Virus record (IMG/VR): IMGVR_UViG_3300025168_000236
Location: 1 to 37,491 of that record
Length of the DNA stretch: 37,491 bases
From: a virus
Strand: one strand, 5' to 3'
Shown here: piece after piece, positions 30,076-36,766 of the stretch
Numbering within the stretch: position 1 is the stretch's first letter
Layout: each line of letters starts with the position of its first letter
Notes under the pieces: generated by a model
Told to the model about the DNA's origin: nothing
Databases searched by the model: none
The model's input: the letters and a program-made list of their open reading frames with translations, nothing else
Program-made: the position numbers and the translations under genes

Positions 30076-30512
30076 CTGTTTTTATCTTTATTTACATTAT
30101 AAATAGCTTTTTTCATAACTTTATCAGTGTATGTCTCGCCATTAATTATCTTGTTTCGTCTACCTGTGTTTATATCTTCTTCGCCTAGCATTATTCTGTA
30201 TATTCTACTTATTAATTGCTTGCCTTTGAAAGACACTTTGTATATATGGTATTTCTGAGTGGTTCTGTTTCTATGTCTCCAGACCTTAATCCAGTCCTGC
30301 TTTAGAAGTCTATTCCAGCGCCGGTTATCCCAACTATAAGAATAAACACCCATCTCAAAGTCTTTCTTAGTGAAAAACTCCATACAATCAAGGTATATAA
30401 GAAGTTCTAGATCTGCATCGTTTAAATCATTATTACGACAGGCCCATTTTCTTATAATGCGGTAGTGTTTCAAGAGGTTTAGCTCTCTAATGTCACTAGC
30501 GTCTAATCTCAT
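30072..30512 (-). CDS. Winged-helix-like, putative DNA-binding protein (146 aa)
   Basis: The protein has 146 residues and is basic. Helices about 3-25 and 33-45 (ADLELLIYLDCMEFF) are followed by FTKKDFEMG, a recognition-helix-like DNRRWNRLLKQDW (about 62-74) and a two-stranded wing (IKVWRHRNRTTQKYHIYKVS). More helices follow (KGKQLISRIYRIMLGEED). This order resembles MarR/winged-helix DNA-binding domains. The gene overlaps groES by ATGA and the next gene by ATGA, so it is made together with the chaperonin. It may regulate the block or act in DNA packaging. I recall it as widely conserved in uncultured marine phages with no proven role. Confidence 0.68.
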   Translation of the reverse strand: MRLDASDIRELNLLKHYRIIRKWACRNNDLNDADLELLIYLDCMEFFTKKDFEMGVYSYSWDNRRWNRLLKQDWIKVWRHRNRTTQKYHIYKVSFKGKQLISRIYRIMLGEEDINTGRRNKIINGETYTDKVMKKAIYNVNKDKNR

Positions 30513-30769
30513 AATACAACGACTATGTCACCTGACTTTATAACGTGATAAGATTCTTTATCAACTTCTATTTTGTGGCCAGCGTGACGATCAAAGTATA
30601 TTATATCATTTTGTTTAACACCTGCTACTTCGTCTCCTGCAGAAACTACTGTAGCTTGAACATAACGTATATCGTCTCTTTGGCTTTCAGCAAGTAAAAG
30701 ACCACCAGTTGTTTTAGTAGTCCCTTCTTTTGCTTTGTTTATTATTAAGTTTCTACCTATTGCTTTCAT
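30509..30769 (-). CDS. groES: Phage co-chaperonin GroES
   Basis: The protein has 86 residues from ATG 30767-30769. A TTG three bases upstream is possible but less likely. GroES features in order: KAIGRNLIINKA strand (2-13), a mobile loop with GGLLL at 22-26 (bacterial GGIVL), VQATVVSAGDEV, and the second barrel half NDIIYFDRHAGHKIEVD, then YHVIKSGDIVVVL to the end. It is about ten residues shorter than bacterial GroES (97 aa) between the two halves, consistent with a reduced roof hairpin, as in T4 gp31. It would cap the phage or host GroEL. The start lies within the last codons of groEL (17-base overlap), so the two are translationally coupled, in the reverse of the usual groES-groEL order. 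Confidence 0.88.
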   Translation of the reverse strand: MKAIGRNLIINKAKEGTTKTTGGLLLAESQRDDIRYVQATVVSAGDEVAGVKQNDIIYFDRHAGHKIEVDKESYHVIKSGDIVVVL

Positions 30770-32306
30770 CAATTCTTAAATTATTAATTACACAATCAGT
30801 AGATAATATTGTTGTTGCTACAGAGGCTGCGTTTTGAAGAGCGCTCTTGGTGACGAGTAATGGGTCTATTATACCTGACTCGATCATATTTACCATTTTT
30901 CCTGTAACCACATTATAACCTTGTCCTTTAGTTGTAGGTGTTTTTAAGTTTTCAACACCAGCATTTTCAAGTATAGTTTTAAAAGGTGCTTTGATAGCTT
31001 CTAATAAAACTGTTTCGCCCTTAGACTTAGCTTTTATATTTGTTGCAGCGTTTAATAGAGCAATACCACCACCAGGAACAATCCCTTCTTTAATAGCAGC
31101 TTTAGTAGCACAGATAGCATCTTCTACTCTATCTGTTTTTTCTTTTAATTCTATTTCTGAATTAGCACCTACTTTTACAACAGCTATTTTAGCAGACAGC
31201 ATGGCTAATCTTTTTTCTAATTTTACAAGCTTATTAGGATTTCTTTCTTTTAAAAGTTTCTTTTTTATTTCCTTAATAACACTTTTAATTTCTTTACTTG
31301 AGTCTTCTATTTGTAATATTGTTTCTTGATAAGAAGTAACACTTTTTAAGCACGAACCTAAATAATCTAAAGTTATCATCTCCATGTCATCGCCAAGGTC
31401 TTCATTTACAATAGTAGCACCGGTTAACATTGAAAGATCTTGAAGCATTTGTTGTTTGTTAACACCATATGTTGGAGCATCAATAACATTTACTTTAATA
31501 TTGCCTTTCATTTTATTCATAGCTAGAGCTGATAAAACACCCTGTTCTAAATCGCCTATAACAAGCAAGGGTTTATTGTTTTTTATTACGTGCTCTAGCA
31601 CCGACTGTATTTGTCTTATTGTTTCAACCGGTGACTCAAGTATTAATACTAGAGGATTTTCTAGTTCTGCTGTTTTACTAGCTTTATTTGTTATAAAGTG
31701 CGAATTCTTTAAACCTTTATCGTACTGTACGCCGTCTATAACTTCAACCTTAGTTTCTCCTTCAGATGTTTCAAGCATAACAACACCTGTGTTGTCTACC
31801 GATCTAAAAGCATCTGCTATAATTTTACCAAGCTTTGGCTCGTTGTTTGTAGATATGGTGGCTATGTTATCTATCATATCACCTTTGACATCTACCTTAA
31901 GTAGCTTTAAGTAATTAACTACTTTATCAACTGCTGAGTTAATACCTTCTTTTAACTCTCTTGCATTTGTTTTATCAACTACTTTATAAGCTTCTTTAAG
32001 TATTGCATGAGCAAGTACTGTTGCTGTAGTTGTGCCGTCACCAGCTTCTTGTACTGTTTTACGAGCTGCTTCTTTTAAAAGCGTTGCACCCATATTTTCC
32101 ACTGGATCTCGCAAAATTATTGAATCCGCGACTGTAACGCCGTCTTTTGTAATAACAGGTCTACCTGTATTATCTTCAAGTATAACGCATTTGCCGCTAG
32201 CCCCGAGTGTGGAGCTAACAGCTTGCGTTAGTTTTTCAATTCCTTTAAATACATTATCTCTGGCTTCAATACCAAAGTTAAGGTTCTTGACTATTGCGTC
32301 TGACAT
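30753..32306 (-). CDS. groEL: Phage chaperonin GroEL
   Basis: The protein has 517 residues, against about 548 for E. coli. ATP-site motifs are intact: TLGASGK (33-39), ITKDGVTVA (52-60) and GDGTTTATVL (89-98). Further on are TDRVEDAICATKAA with the catalytic Asp, GIVPGGGIALL, GYNVVTG with the conserved Asn, and IDPLLVTKSALQNAASV with the conserved Asp. The apical domain is complete, but its binding face is altered: the region equivalent to YLSPYF (E. coli 199-204) reads LKNSHF, losing Y199 and Y203 while keeping F204. The C-terminal Gly-Gly-Met tail is absent; the protein ends INNLRIDESNR. The ATG is preceded by an A/T-rich leader without a Shine-Dalgarno sequence. It probably folds phage capsid or tail proteins. 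Confidence 0.95.
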   Translation of the reverse strand: MSDAIVKNLNFGIEARDNVFKGIEKLTQAVSSTLGASGKCVILEDNTGRPVITKDGVTVADSIILRDPVENMGATLLKEAARKTVQEAGDGTTTATVLAHAILKEAYKVVDKTNARELKEGINSAVDKVVNYLKLLKVDVKGDMIDNIATISTNNEPKLGKIIADAFRSVDNTGVVMLETSEGETKVEVIDGVQYDKGLKNSHFITNKASKTAELENPLVLILESPVETIRQIQSVLEHVIKNNKPLLVIGDLEQGVLSALAMNKMKGNIKVNVIDAPTYGVNKQQMLQDLSMLTGATIVNEDLGDDMEMITLDYLGSCLKSVTSYQETILQIEDSSKEIKSVIKEIKKKLLKERNPNKLVKLEKRLAMLSAKIAVVKVGANSEIELKEKTDRVEDAICATKAAIKEGIVPGGGIALLNAATNIKAKSKGETVLLEAIKAPFKTILENAGVENLKTPTTKGQGYNVVTGKMVNMIESGIIDPLLVTKSALQNAASVATTILSTDCVINNLRIDESNR

Positions 32307-32708: not shown

Positions 32709-32824
32709 CTATGTAAGTCTTATTCTTAGCTCTCCAGCGTTGTGATATAAACCACCCACTGGTATACCGCCTGTTGCTGCAGCTGTATCATCTGCAAAAT
32801 TAAAGCCTACCACCGTTGGCATAA
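32709..32824 (-). pseudogene. Orphaned 3' end of the tail-fibre gene
   Basis: After the fibre stop codon (TAG 32825-32827), the first copy of the 83-bp repeat continues in another frame. It contains MPTVVGFNFADDTAAATGG, then IPVGGLYHNAGELRIRLT, and a TAG at 32709-32711. This is the natural-looking end of the fibre: removing one repeat unit joins it in frame to the 608-aa protein, giving about 619 residues. An ATG at 32820-32822 sits two bases after the fibre stop (TAGTTATG), so a 37-aa peptide could be made by re-initiation. Confidence 0.7.
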
Positions 32825-32919
32825 CTATTCTTGGAAACCCACTGGTATACCGCCTGTTGCTGCAGCTGTATCATCTGCAAAATTAAAGCCTACCACCGTT
32901 GGCATAACTATTCTTGGAA
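32754..32919. repeat. Perfect 83-bp tandem duplication at the 3' end of the tail-fibre gene
   Basis: Copy 1 is 32754-32836 and copy 2 is 32837-32919, identical by eye over the full unit. The unit length, 83, is not a multiple of three, so the second pass of the ribosome is out of frame and meets a stop after GFQE. Confidence 0.95.
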
Positions 32920-34651
32920 CTTGAGCAACACTACCAGTTCCTCTATTAACTCCGCCTTCTGTTATTATAAGTGCATTAGAGTTTGTATTAGTAGTTGTTC
33001 CAACAGATACAACAAATTTAGTTTCACCCAAACCTTGGTTGTAGTTTACTGGAGGATAAGCAGTACCAACTGGGTTATTTCTATAGCCTAACACCATTTG
33101 GCCGTTTTCTAAGTTTAGATTAGTACCTATACCAAATGCGTTTTGAAGATCTAAACTAGAGTCTGTAGTTATTATAACGTTGTTACCTAAAATATAACCA
33201 GTGTCATTAGATTTAGTTCCTGAAATATTGTTAGAATTTCCTAAAATTATTCCTGATCCTCCAGCACTGGTAAAACTGTTACTCCCTCCTAACACAATAC
33301 CACTTCTAACGTTACTAAGCGTGTTACTAAAACCAGCAACTAAGCATCTCTCTGTTCCAGTATTTACACCTGTTATAGTATTAGATAATCCAAATATAGC
33401 ACAAGCAGTGCCTTCTGTCATAGTATTTCCTTGACCTACTGATATTGAGTTATCAGAGTTTGTAAGTATCTGGTTGTTATTACCTACAGCTAAACAGTGA
33501 TCAGCTCCAGACACAACATCATTATTACCAGCACCAATAACCATAGACGTGTTGTCTACCGTCACACCACCTGGGTTATTACTTAATACAATACCGTTTC
33601 TAAATACAGCTTTACCAGTTTGGTTAGTTTCACTAGCTATAGTTACAAGAGAGCCATTGTCTGTTATATTAGAATTTTGTATACCAGCACCACCAGAACT
33701 CCATTTAGTTAGTTTATTAACTGTACCAGTTCCAGTTACAGTACCACCTCCGTCACTAATCCAAGCAACTCCAGTTCCTGTAGAACTTAACACTTGGCCA
33801 GCTGTTCCAGGGGAACTACTATTGTCTTGTAATACGTTTAAAACTTCTAATGGACAGCTAGCTCTAAGATATGGTCCACTAAACTCTCCACGACCATTCA
33901 CGCTTAAATCTCCACTTATTGACAATCTTTTAGAAATTGTAAAAAACTCGTTTGAAGGATTGTATGTCATAAATGAATCACCAAGCGTTCCATTAGGACC
34001 ATTTGTCCAAATTGGTAAAGTGTTAGTAGTACCAGTTCCAGTTACAGTTCCATTATTAGTGGCTTGTATTTGAACTGTATTACCGCCTTGGTCAGCTAAT
34101 GTAATACCAGTTCCAGCTTCAAAACTAACATTATCTACAGTTCCGCCAGATCCTGTTAATACTATTTTATAATCATCCGCACCGCTTACAGCGCCTGTTA
34201 AATCGTAAGTTGTATCAGTGTCACCTGCTACCCAAGCAACTCCAGTTCCTGTAGAACTCAATACTTGACCTGCTGTTCCAGAAATATTACTACCGTCTTG
34301 TAATGGACAACTAATTCTAAGATAGGGTCCACTAAACGCTCCACGACCACTTACACTTAAATCTCCATCTATTGACAGTCTTTTAGAAATATTGAAAAAC
34401 TGGGTCGCAGGGTTATAGGTCATAAATGAATCACCTATATTCTGGCCATCAGGAGTAAACATGGCTATTGTGTTTAAAGTACCACCGCCTGCTATTAAAT
34501 TATTAGAACTTATAATATAATCTCCTAAATCACCTACTGTTAAACTTTTTGTCCGATTTTTATTAGGTGCTGATTGAGACGAATCGGTTATAACAAAACT
34601 GTCTGAATCATTAGGTGTTGTTTGTTTTGGGTAACTATATATTATTGCCAT
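32825..34651 (-). CDS. Tail fibre protein with YadA-like beta-roll repeats, truncated at C-terminus (608 aa)
   Basis: The N-terminal residues 1-45 (MAIIYSYPKQTTPNDSDSFV, then ITDSSQSAP) match the start of the upstream 703-aa fibre and probably anchor it to the virion. Two copies of a ~90-residue module (GDSFMTYNPATQFFNISKRL and GDSFMTYNPSNEFFTISKRL, each ending SSTGTGVAW) lie at about 52-145 and 200-305. Residues about 375-505 hold short Gly/Asn repeats (AVGNNNQ, SVGQGNT, IFGLSNT, VAGFSNT, VLGGSNS, ILGNSNN) typical of YadA-head-type trimeric beta-rolls. The last residues GIPVGFQE arise from the 83-bp duplication; the likely original end, GGLYHNAGELRIRLT, lies downstream out of frame. It probably recognises the host surface. 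Confidence 0.82.
   Translation of the reverse strand: MAIIYSYPKQTTPNDSDSFVITDSSQSAPNKNRTKSLTVGDLGDYIISSNNLIAGGGTLNTIAMFTPDGQNIGDSFMTYNPATQFFNISKRLSIDGDLSVSGRGAFSGPYLRISCPLQDGSNISGTAGQVLSSTGTGVAWVAGDTDTTYDLTGAVSGADDYKIVLTGSGGTVDNVSFEAGTGITLADQGGNTVQIQATNNGTVTGTGTTNTLPIWTNGPNGTLGDSFMTYNPSNEFFTISKRLSISGDLSVNGRGEFSGPYLRASCPLEVLNVLQDNSSSPGTAGQVLSSTGTGVAWISDGGGTVTGTGTVNKLTKWSSGGAGIQNSNITDNGSLVTIASETNQTGKAVFRNGIVLSNNPGGVTVDNTSMVIGAGNNDVVSGADHCLAVGNNNQILTNSDNSISVGQGNTMTEGTACAIFGLSNTITGVNTGTERCLVAGFSNTLSNVRSGIVLGGSNSFTSAGGSGIILGNSNNISGTKSNDTGYILGNNVIITTDSSLDLQNAFGIGTNLNLENGQMVLGYRNNPVGTAYPPVNYNQGLGETKFVVSVGTTTNTNSNALIITEGGVNRGTGSVAQVPRIVMPTVVGFNFADDTAAATGGIPVGFQE
33761..34470 (-). repeat. Internal duplication in the tail-fibre gene
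   Basis: Two similar segments, about 33761-33985 and 34232-34450, share stretches such as CCAAGCAACTCCAGTTCCTG and CATAAATGAATCACC, interspersed with point differences and one short insertion. They encode the two ~90-residue modules of the 608-aa fibre. Divergence is largely synonymous, so both copies look functional. Confidence 0.75.
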
Positions 34652-34654
34652 TTA

Positions 34655-36766
34655 TTATTTATAAATTTGAAAGTTAACAAGCATGTTTGTTCCTCCTGCT
34701 TTACCTGTTAAACCTGCTGGTAATAAAACAAAATCAAAATAGTTAGCGTTTTTATTTTCTACGTAACCTATGGCTGGAACTTCATTACCATTTTGATCTT
34801 CAGTTGAAGATTCAAATATAATATTAACCATGTAACCTGTATCAGTGTCTGTTCTACCAGCAAAGTTTACTCTACACATTATTCGAGCTGATGTTGAGTT
34901 ATTCGCGAATGTCCAATCATTTAATGTTCCACCAAAGTCTTGAGTGTTAGATGTAACATTACCTTGATTTTTAAATAAAGGAGTACCTGTAGCACTTACT
35001 GATATTGAAAAATTAATTGGTACAAGGCTTTTAGCTAATACATCTTGAGTTTCTTGCAACGTAGCTTTATAAACTTTATTTCCTCCTGAAGTGTCATTAA
35101 TTATAATAGTATCTGCAAGATCTAATGAAGGTGCTGGTGTGGCTGCGGATTCTATTATATTTCTATTACCAACATATTCTACCTGTATAGTTGTTTCATA
35201 GGTTGGGGAAATTGTGCTATTTGATATTGCTGCTATACCACTGCCATTAGTCAACTGAGACCATACACCGTTTCCATCACCTCTTAAAAATTTAGTAGCA
35301 TCTGGCGAGCCAATAGCTCTTAGTGAATATTCTAAATTACCTGTTGTTAATATGGGATCAGCGCCTGCTCCACCGGTAACTCCTCCGCTTATAAAGTTAC
35401 TATCACTACTTCCAACGCTTGTGACTGTACCAAGAGAAGAAGGGCCATTTATAGTTAAAGTATTACCTGTTAAAGTAGTTGTTATATTAGTACCACCAGC
35501 TATATCTATAATACCGCCTGAACTTATAGCAGTAGGACCACCTGAATCTCCTTGAAGACTAAATGTGTATGTCCCTGGAATTGTAGATAATGTTTGAAGT
35601 GAACCATTACCTAACACAACATCATTACTTGTACCATTCCATGGTATAGTTAATGTGCCGTTTGCTGTTAAAGCAGGTGAAGGCCCCAATGAAGCCGTAT
35701 TGCTACTTGTTGCTATTATACTAGTTATACCAGAAGCACCAGTGTAGTCTATGGTTAATCTTTTAAGACCATTATCCCAGTCTGTTTCTATAGATGTACC
35801 TCCAGCAAACTCTATAGTATCTCCAGACGCCACTGTTGTAGCCGCACCTGAGTCACCATCAATAAGCCATGAATAAGTACCTGCTATAGAAGAAGTAGCT
35901 TGTAGCGCTCCTGTACCATCTATAAACTGACTTGTTGCACCAGATCCTGCGACAACAAATGTACCTGCTGAGATAATTGGATTAGGCGTAGAAACAGTAA
36001 AAGCAGAAGGCATTGTTAAACCTACGCTTGATACTCCACCTGAACCACCACCGCCGGTATAAACAGGTATATTAAGTTCTGTTCCTGCTGAGTTAAAAGC
36101 AGCTGCACCTGTAGTGCCATTGTTTGTTATTGTAAACGTTGGCATTTTACCGTTAAAAGTATTCCAGTCTGTAGAACTTAAATATCCGTCGGTAGAGGTT
36201 GTAGCTTGAGTAATACCTATATTAGGTGTAGTTGTTCCTGTTACTGTTATAGGTGCTGTCGATGTTATAGAACTTAGTCCTGGTGTTGACCAGTTTCCTA
36301 AATAATCTAAATATTGTCCTGCTGATCCACCGGTAATACCAATTGTTAGAAGCGGAGTGGTAGTGGAGTTAGTAACACTTGTTGTAAAAGCTGCTATTGC
36401 TGTAGAATCTACTGCAAAATTAGTTACAGTTCCAATTGTACCTAAGTTGTTTATAGCATTTGTTATCGATGTGTTAGTAAATGTGAATATATCACCCGTT
36501 GTGGCTAAACTATTACCTCCACTTTGAACAGGTCCTGTATTTAAATCAAGAACTACAACTGGTCCAGTGGAGTTTGTCACTGATAAAAAATTGGAATTAG
36601 TAGAAGTTACACTGGTTATTCCACTGCCACCTCCACCTGTTCCAAGAGCTAAAACGCTATTTATTGTTACTGTTCTGGTAGGATTACCTTCTACAGAGAC
36701 ATCTGATATAAGTAATAAATCTTCTGCCTTAGGCGTTACTGTAGTATAAGAATTAATTATAGCCAT
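34655..36766 (-). CDS. Tail fibre-like virion protein (703 aa)
   Basis: The protein has 703 residues and is Gly/Thr/Ser/Asn-rich throughout, with very few charges. The N-terminal residues 1-40 (MAIINSYTTVTPKAEDLLLI, then SDVSVEGNPTRTVT) are related to the 608-aa fibre. Repeated strand modules include GYLSSTDWNTFNGKMPTF (about 190-210), IPGTYTFSLQGDSGGP and IAGTYSWLIDGDSGAA, which repeat a [I/A]xGTYxxxxxGDSG pattern. The C-terminal ~120 residues form a more compact domain (FSISVSATGTPLFKNQG, DWTFANNSTSARIMCRVNF, YFDFVLLPAGLTGKAGG) that may be the receptor-facing tip. The gene ends 3 bases before the second fibre gene. The receptor is unknown. Confidence 0.8.
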   Translation of the reverse strand: MAIINSYTTVTPKAEDLLLISDVSVEGNPTRTVTINSVLALGTGGGGSGITSVTSTNSNFLSVTNSTGPVVVLDLNTGPVQSGGNSLATTGDIFTFTNTSITNAINNLGTIGTVTNFAVDSTAIAAFTTSVTNSTTTPLLTIGITGGSAGQYLDYLGNWSTPGLSSITSTAPITVTGTTTPNIGITQATTSTDGYLSSTDWNTFNGKMPTFTITNNGTTGAAAFNSAGTELNIPVYTGGGGSGGVSSVGLTMPSAFTVSTPNPIISAGTFVVAGSGATSQFIDGTGALQATSSIAGTYSWLIDGDSGAATTVASGDTIEFAGGTSIETDWDNGLKRLTIDYTGASGITSIIATSSNTASLGPSPALTANGTLTIPWNGTSNDVVLGNGSLQTLSTIPGTYTFSLQGDSGGPTAISSGGIIDIAGGTNITTTLTGNTLTINGPSSLGTVTSVGSSDSNFISGGVTGGAGADPILTTGNLEYSLRAIGSPDATKFLRGDGNGVWSQLTNGSGIAAISNSTISPTYETTIQVEYVGNRNIIESAATPAPSLDLADTIIINDTSGGNKVYKATLQETQDVLAKSLVPINFSISVSATGTPLFKNQGNVTSNTQDFGGTLNDWTFANNSTSARIMCRVNFAGRTDTDTGYMVNIIFESSTEDQNGNEVPAIGYVENKNANYFDFVLLPAGLTGKAGGTNMLVNFQIYK

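Follow-up and report, generated by a model that had tools for sequence, protein, structure and literature searches.

The fibre locus and its 83-bp duplication

The window analysed here is the entire IMG/VR virus record IMGVR_UViG_3300025168_000236, a 37,491-bp sequence from an uncultured virus. Its terminase, portal and capsid genes match phage families, and the terminase groups the record with phages of Flavobacteriia, the nearest cultured relatives being Flavobacterium and Cellulophaga phages. The minus strand carries a fibre gene (32825-34651) whose product of 608 amino acids ends in ATGGIPVGFQE. It is adjoined by a gene for a phage GroEL-like chaperonin, recognised by family match (30753-32306, minus strand), and by a second, intact fibre-like gene of 703 amino acids (34655-36766, minus strand) with a similar MAII-SY start. 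The remaining ORFs of the record are long and unbroken. Phage-borne GroES-like and GroEL-like genes together occupy 30509-32306, immediately beside the fibre gene, and GroEL relatives were present in about 300 viral stretches. In the nearest named record, the environmental genome MW202828, no gene in the region around groEL is annotated as tail or fibre.

A first-pass annotation, made from the sequence alone, had called the 608-residue product a tail fibre, and this assignment held. The ORF had no match in Pfam or PHROG; relatives of it are encoded by two viral contigs (L002, 66%, and L003, 70%, over the best segment), both of which continue in frame through the C-terminal cap motif described below. 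Among isolated phages, the fibre found no match at the DNA level and the cap none at the protein level, and a sequence search of solved structures with either one returned nothing meaningful. Repeats in the C-terminal half resemble a YadA-like beta-roll. A structure model of the homologous region at the C-terminus of a relative, L191 (mean pLDDT 71), shows a beta-roll, then a loop of poor prediction quality, and finally a short helix and a hairpin. A Foldseek comparison of this model with the PDB gave weak matches, the best-ranked of which included YadA-like heads and an ice-binding beta-roll; none was at E<=0.001.

Inside the 3' end of the fibre gene lie two identical 83-bp copies, end to end, as the first-pass annotation had described. 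Tandem Repeats Finder reports them at 32754-32919 (period 83, 2.0 copies, 100% matches, 0 indels, score 332), and in an exact-repeat comparison the pair exceeds every other exact direct repeat of the record by a wide margin, the runner-up being 27 bp (33761 versus 34232). In gene direction, copy 1 (32837-32919, minus strand) is in frame with the fibre and encodes about PRIVMPTVVGFNFADDTAAATGGIPVG; copy 2 (32754-32836, minus strand) is out of frame with the fibre ORF and in frame with the tip downstream. The junction between the copies reads CTTGGAA and, across the boundary, ACCCACTGG. The match length equals the period (83), so that the flanks and the unit ends have 0 bases in common; there is neither microhomology at the breakpoints nor any other array at the site.

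Since 83 is 3 x 27 + 2, and not a multiple of 3, the tip is shifted against the main frame and sits in frame -1. The predicted consequences of this shift were confirmed: the ORF (34651-32825) stops at GFQE, and the usual tip, ending in GGIPVGGLYHNAGELRIRLT and a stop codon, survives intact in the -1 frame, whose open stretch runs from 32870 to 32709. The duplication thereby deprives the fibre of its last 14 residues, although the DNA for the whole cap is still present, the rest of it (GLYHNAGELRIRLT and the stop; 32709-32753, minus strand) lying out of frame. With the tip read off the second, native copy and the adjoining flank, counting residues gave 619 amino acids for the one-copy fibre, in agreement with the length of about 619 first proposed.

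A conserved cap at the end of many phage fibres

In the model of the relative, the cap is made of a short helix, a GIPVGG loop and a beta-hairpin, the latter at residues 170-179 in a block with pLDDT of about 78-85. Because the duplicated unit spans the cap from PRIV to GIPVG, the break is predicted to take away only the hairpin with which the cap ends. A profile built from 14 tips retrieved 80 viral loci. Of 81 instances of the GIPVGG motif, 76 begin exactly 19 residues before the stop. The fibre-end pattern FADDTAAAxGG[IV]PVGGxYHNxGxxRIRxT is absent from the C-terminus of the annotated ORF, its last 14 residues being out of frame. Carriers of the cap include proteins matching tail-fibre and collagen-like tail families; the genome collection yielded six weak matches to it.

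The cap appears to be portable, in that many different fibre-like proteins of phages end in [FY]ADD.AAA.GG[IV]PVGG.Y....G...IR.[TV] (32709-32836 in the window; loci L163-L260). It is conserved in DNA as well: against L185, L169 and L191, positions 32709-32836 share identical stretches of up to 29 bp and 72-82% identity over 128 bp, while the fibres upstream differ. From these alignments, the cap DNA could act as a homology patch for fibre exchange. The closest contig (L004/L084) has 96% identical DNA downstream, and this similarity ends within the final codons of the fibre gene, at 32714; the gene therefore seems to have been exchanged as a block.

The distance of the cap from the stop bears on the possibility that the truncation is real, fixed and selected, with loss of the hairpin altering fibre assembly or receptor use and the 703-residue neighbour compensating. 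The adjoining fibre-like gene, with its similar N-terminal start, and the intact remainder of the fibre ORF would suit such a scenario. Against this, a distance kept across many different fibres points to constraint, the two copies are still identical, and the tip frame downstream has stayed open without signs of decay; we consider a selected truncation very unlikely.

Copy number of the cap segment in relatives

The first-pass annotation had suggested looking for a single copy in related phages, and the cap DNA is indeed single in 80 of the 80 related viral loci, a set that contains near-duplicate contigs and thus fewer independent loci. Duplication was scored as a second cap copy within 600 bp, with at most 2 mismatches in 24. 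The same profile search would have matched a two-copy locus, so the set is not biased toward single-copy loci. L056, L117, L185 and L191 are close DNA relatives of the cap with one copy. As the cap is conserved and single in relatives, one copy is the normal state, and the two-copy state of the window is a derived one that breaks a conserved module. Exact-pattern scans of viral contigs found no near-identical strain, and a sibling strain with two copies may exist. Upstream of the cap-bearing fibre gene of L203, L205 and L208, near 588-750, we also observed arrays with a period of 18 bp. Contigs that are otherwise similar differ in the length of these arrays, which makes them more promising candidates for variation in repeat length than the duplication in the window.

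These counts weigh on the proposal that slippage or recombination between the copies toggles the full fibre, one copy being on and two copies off, and so changes receptor specificity. From what is generally known of tandem repeats, an exact 83-bp pair should readily lose a copy, and tail-fibre tandem duplications with mixed copy number occur in the Enterococcus phage EfV12-phi1, in which in-frame 1.8-kb duplications arose in four replicates, were linked to host resistance and were verified by PCR and long reads (PMC6365445). Such precedents for fibre duplications of benefit to a phage keep the reading frame. The two cases share a tandem duplication within a phage tail-fibre gene. Unlike those of EfV12-phi1, however, the duplication in the window, a single 83-bp copy known from the record sequence alone, breaks the frame, and the ORF ends at 32825. 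Contingency loci likewise resemble the present case in that a change of repeat copy number alters the reading frame, but they consist of many short units whose number varies among relatives; here there are two 83-bp units (2.0 copies) in one record, and copy number is constant in the 80 related loci, among which there is no near-identical strain. Moreover, there is neither an array nor microhomology to seed slippage, and the part that is lost is the conserved cap and not a variable receptor-binding part. The first-pass annotation held that two copies fixed in every related genome would speak against a switch; what we found is one copy everywhere and two copies in none (0 of 80 loci). A literature search for slipped-strand phase variation of phage tail fibres returned no paper matching all terms. 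A reversible switch is without support beyond the repeat itself, and we judge it quite improbable.

The junction also offers a possible route by which the tip could be rescued. The duplication creates there an in-frame heptamer of the XXXYYYZ type (G GGT TTC, 32840-32834, minus strand) in the overlap of the two frames, a candidate site for programmed -1 frameshifting; a slip at this position leads precisely into the frame that terminates in the cap, and would give a fibre with a cap segment of about 27 amino acids doubled. Yet about 6% of random duplications of similar size in the fibre gene create such a heptamer, and the 83-bp unit folds no better than its shuffles (z 0.22). The 70 nt after the heptamer have a predicted fold of -13.0 kcal/mol, a raw value without shuffle control. 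The junction is confined to this record, its relatives being single-copy, and of the readings considered here frameshift rescue is the one that we regard as most improbable. Taken more broadly, a duplication that is real and reversible, so that capped and uncapped fibres alternate, or a slip at the junction that gives some fibres a doubled cap segment, is an unlikely outcome.

Origin of the duplication

An exact tandem copy of 83 bp is far beyond chance, as about 2.25 Mb of related loci contained only one further non-array exact tandem copy of at least 75 bp. This second case, in a related contig (L056:289-440), lies where a small gene starts and has a period of 75 with 2 shared bases. It puts the frequency of such events at about one in every one to two megabases of data of this kind and, with 2 such copies in about 2.3 Mb, the window included, one event in some window is not startling.

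Based on our results, we favour a one-off event, either an artefact or a recent mutation, in a cap segment that is normally single-copy, and we give this reading a probability of about 0.85. The fibre gene of this phage group normally has one copy of the cap-coding segment; the 83-bp segment would have been copied once, head to tail; and the frame then shifts, with translation stopping after GFQE and the final hairpin of the cap lost. The two-copy state would most likely give a fibre without its end, or else be absent from nature; a fibre truncated in this way would presumably be defective and its natural frequency low.

Overall, the odds are close to even that the extra copy comes from assembly or library preparation, for example from two contig ends that overlapped by 83 bp and were joined untrimmed. 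Joining overlapping contig ends can produce an exact tandem copy, and the window resembles such an artefact in having exact copies, two only, with a match length equal to the period; the overlap is a candidate cause. Slippage often leaves some shared bases (2 in L056), whereas a blunt event or an untrimmed overlap leaves none, and the lack of microhomology in the window is therefore easier to reconcile with an untrimmed end overlap or with a blunt event than with slippage between short repeats. An artefact of circle closing was considered and set aside, as direct terminal repeats are absent from the record and the duplication lies in its interior, which holds unless the contig was rotated.

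The other form of the one-off event, a genuine mutation that arose recently in the sampled population and is probably transient, is a serious possibility, if a somewhat less probable one. An exact tandem expansion without flanking homology is an untypical error for a de Bruijn assembler and, to our knowledge, 83 is not a default k of the common assemblers; both points place a real mutation close behind an artefact. The identity of the two copies limits the age of the event only loosely. Small-domain duplications in the tail-fibre adhesin of bacteriophage T4, described by Tetart and colleagues in 1996, reportedly expand host range. Small duplications in a fibre adhesin are common to both cases, but an expanded host range is what is described in T4, whereas here the protein is truncated and the cap lost. 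Of the three readings first offered for the locus, a fresh mutation and an assembly artefact stay likely, and the reversible slippage switch does not.

Implications

The duplication is real in the record and is most likely an artefact or a fresh mutation. It carries a caution, namely that reads are needed before an exact tandem copy in a single metagenome contig is taken for a genetic switch. If the duplication were real and reversible, it would turn a fibre tip on and off by unusually simple means. The more useful result is a by-product of the analysis: a short C-terminal cap, at a fixed distance from the stop, is common to phage fibres that are otherwise different, and its DNA is conserved enough to be a possible exchange point of fibre genes.
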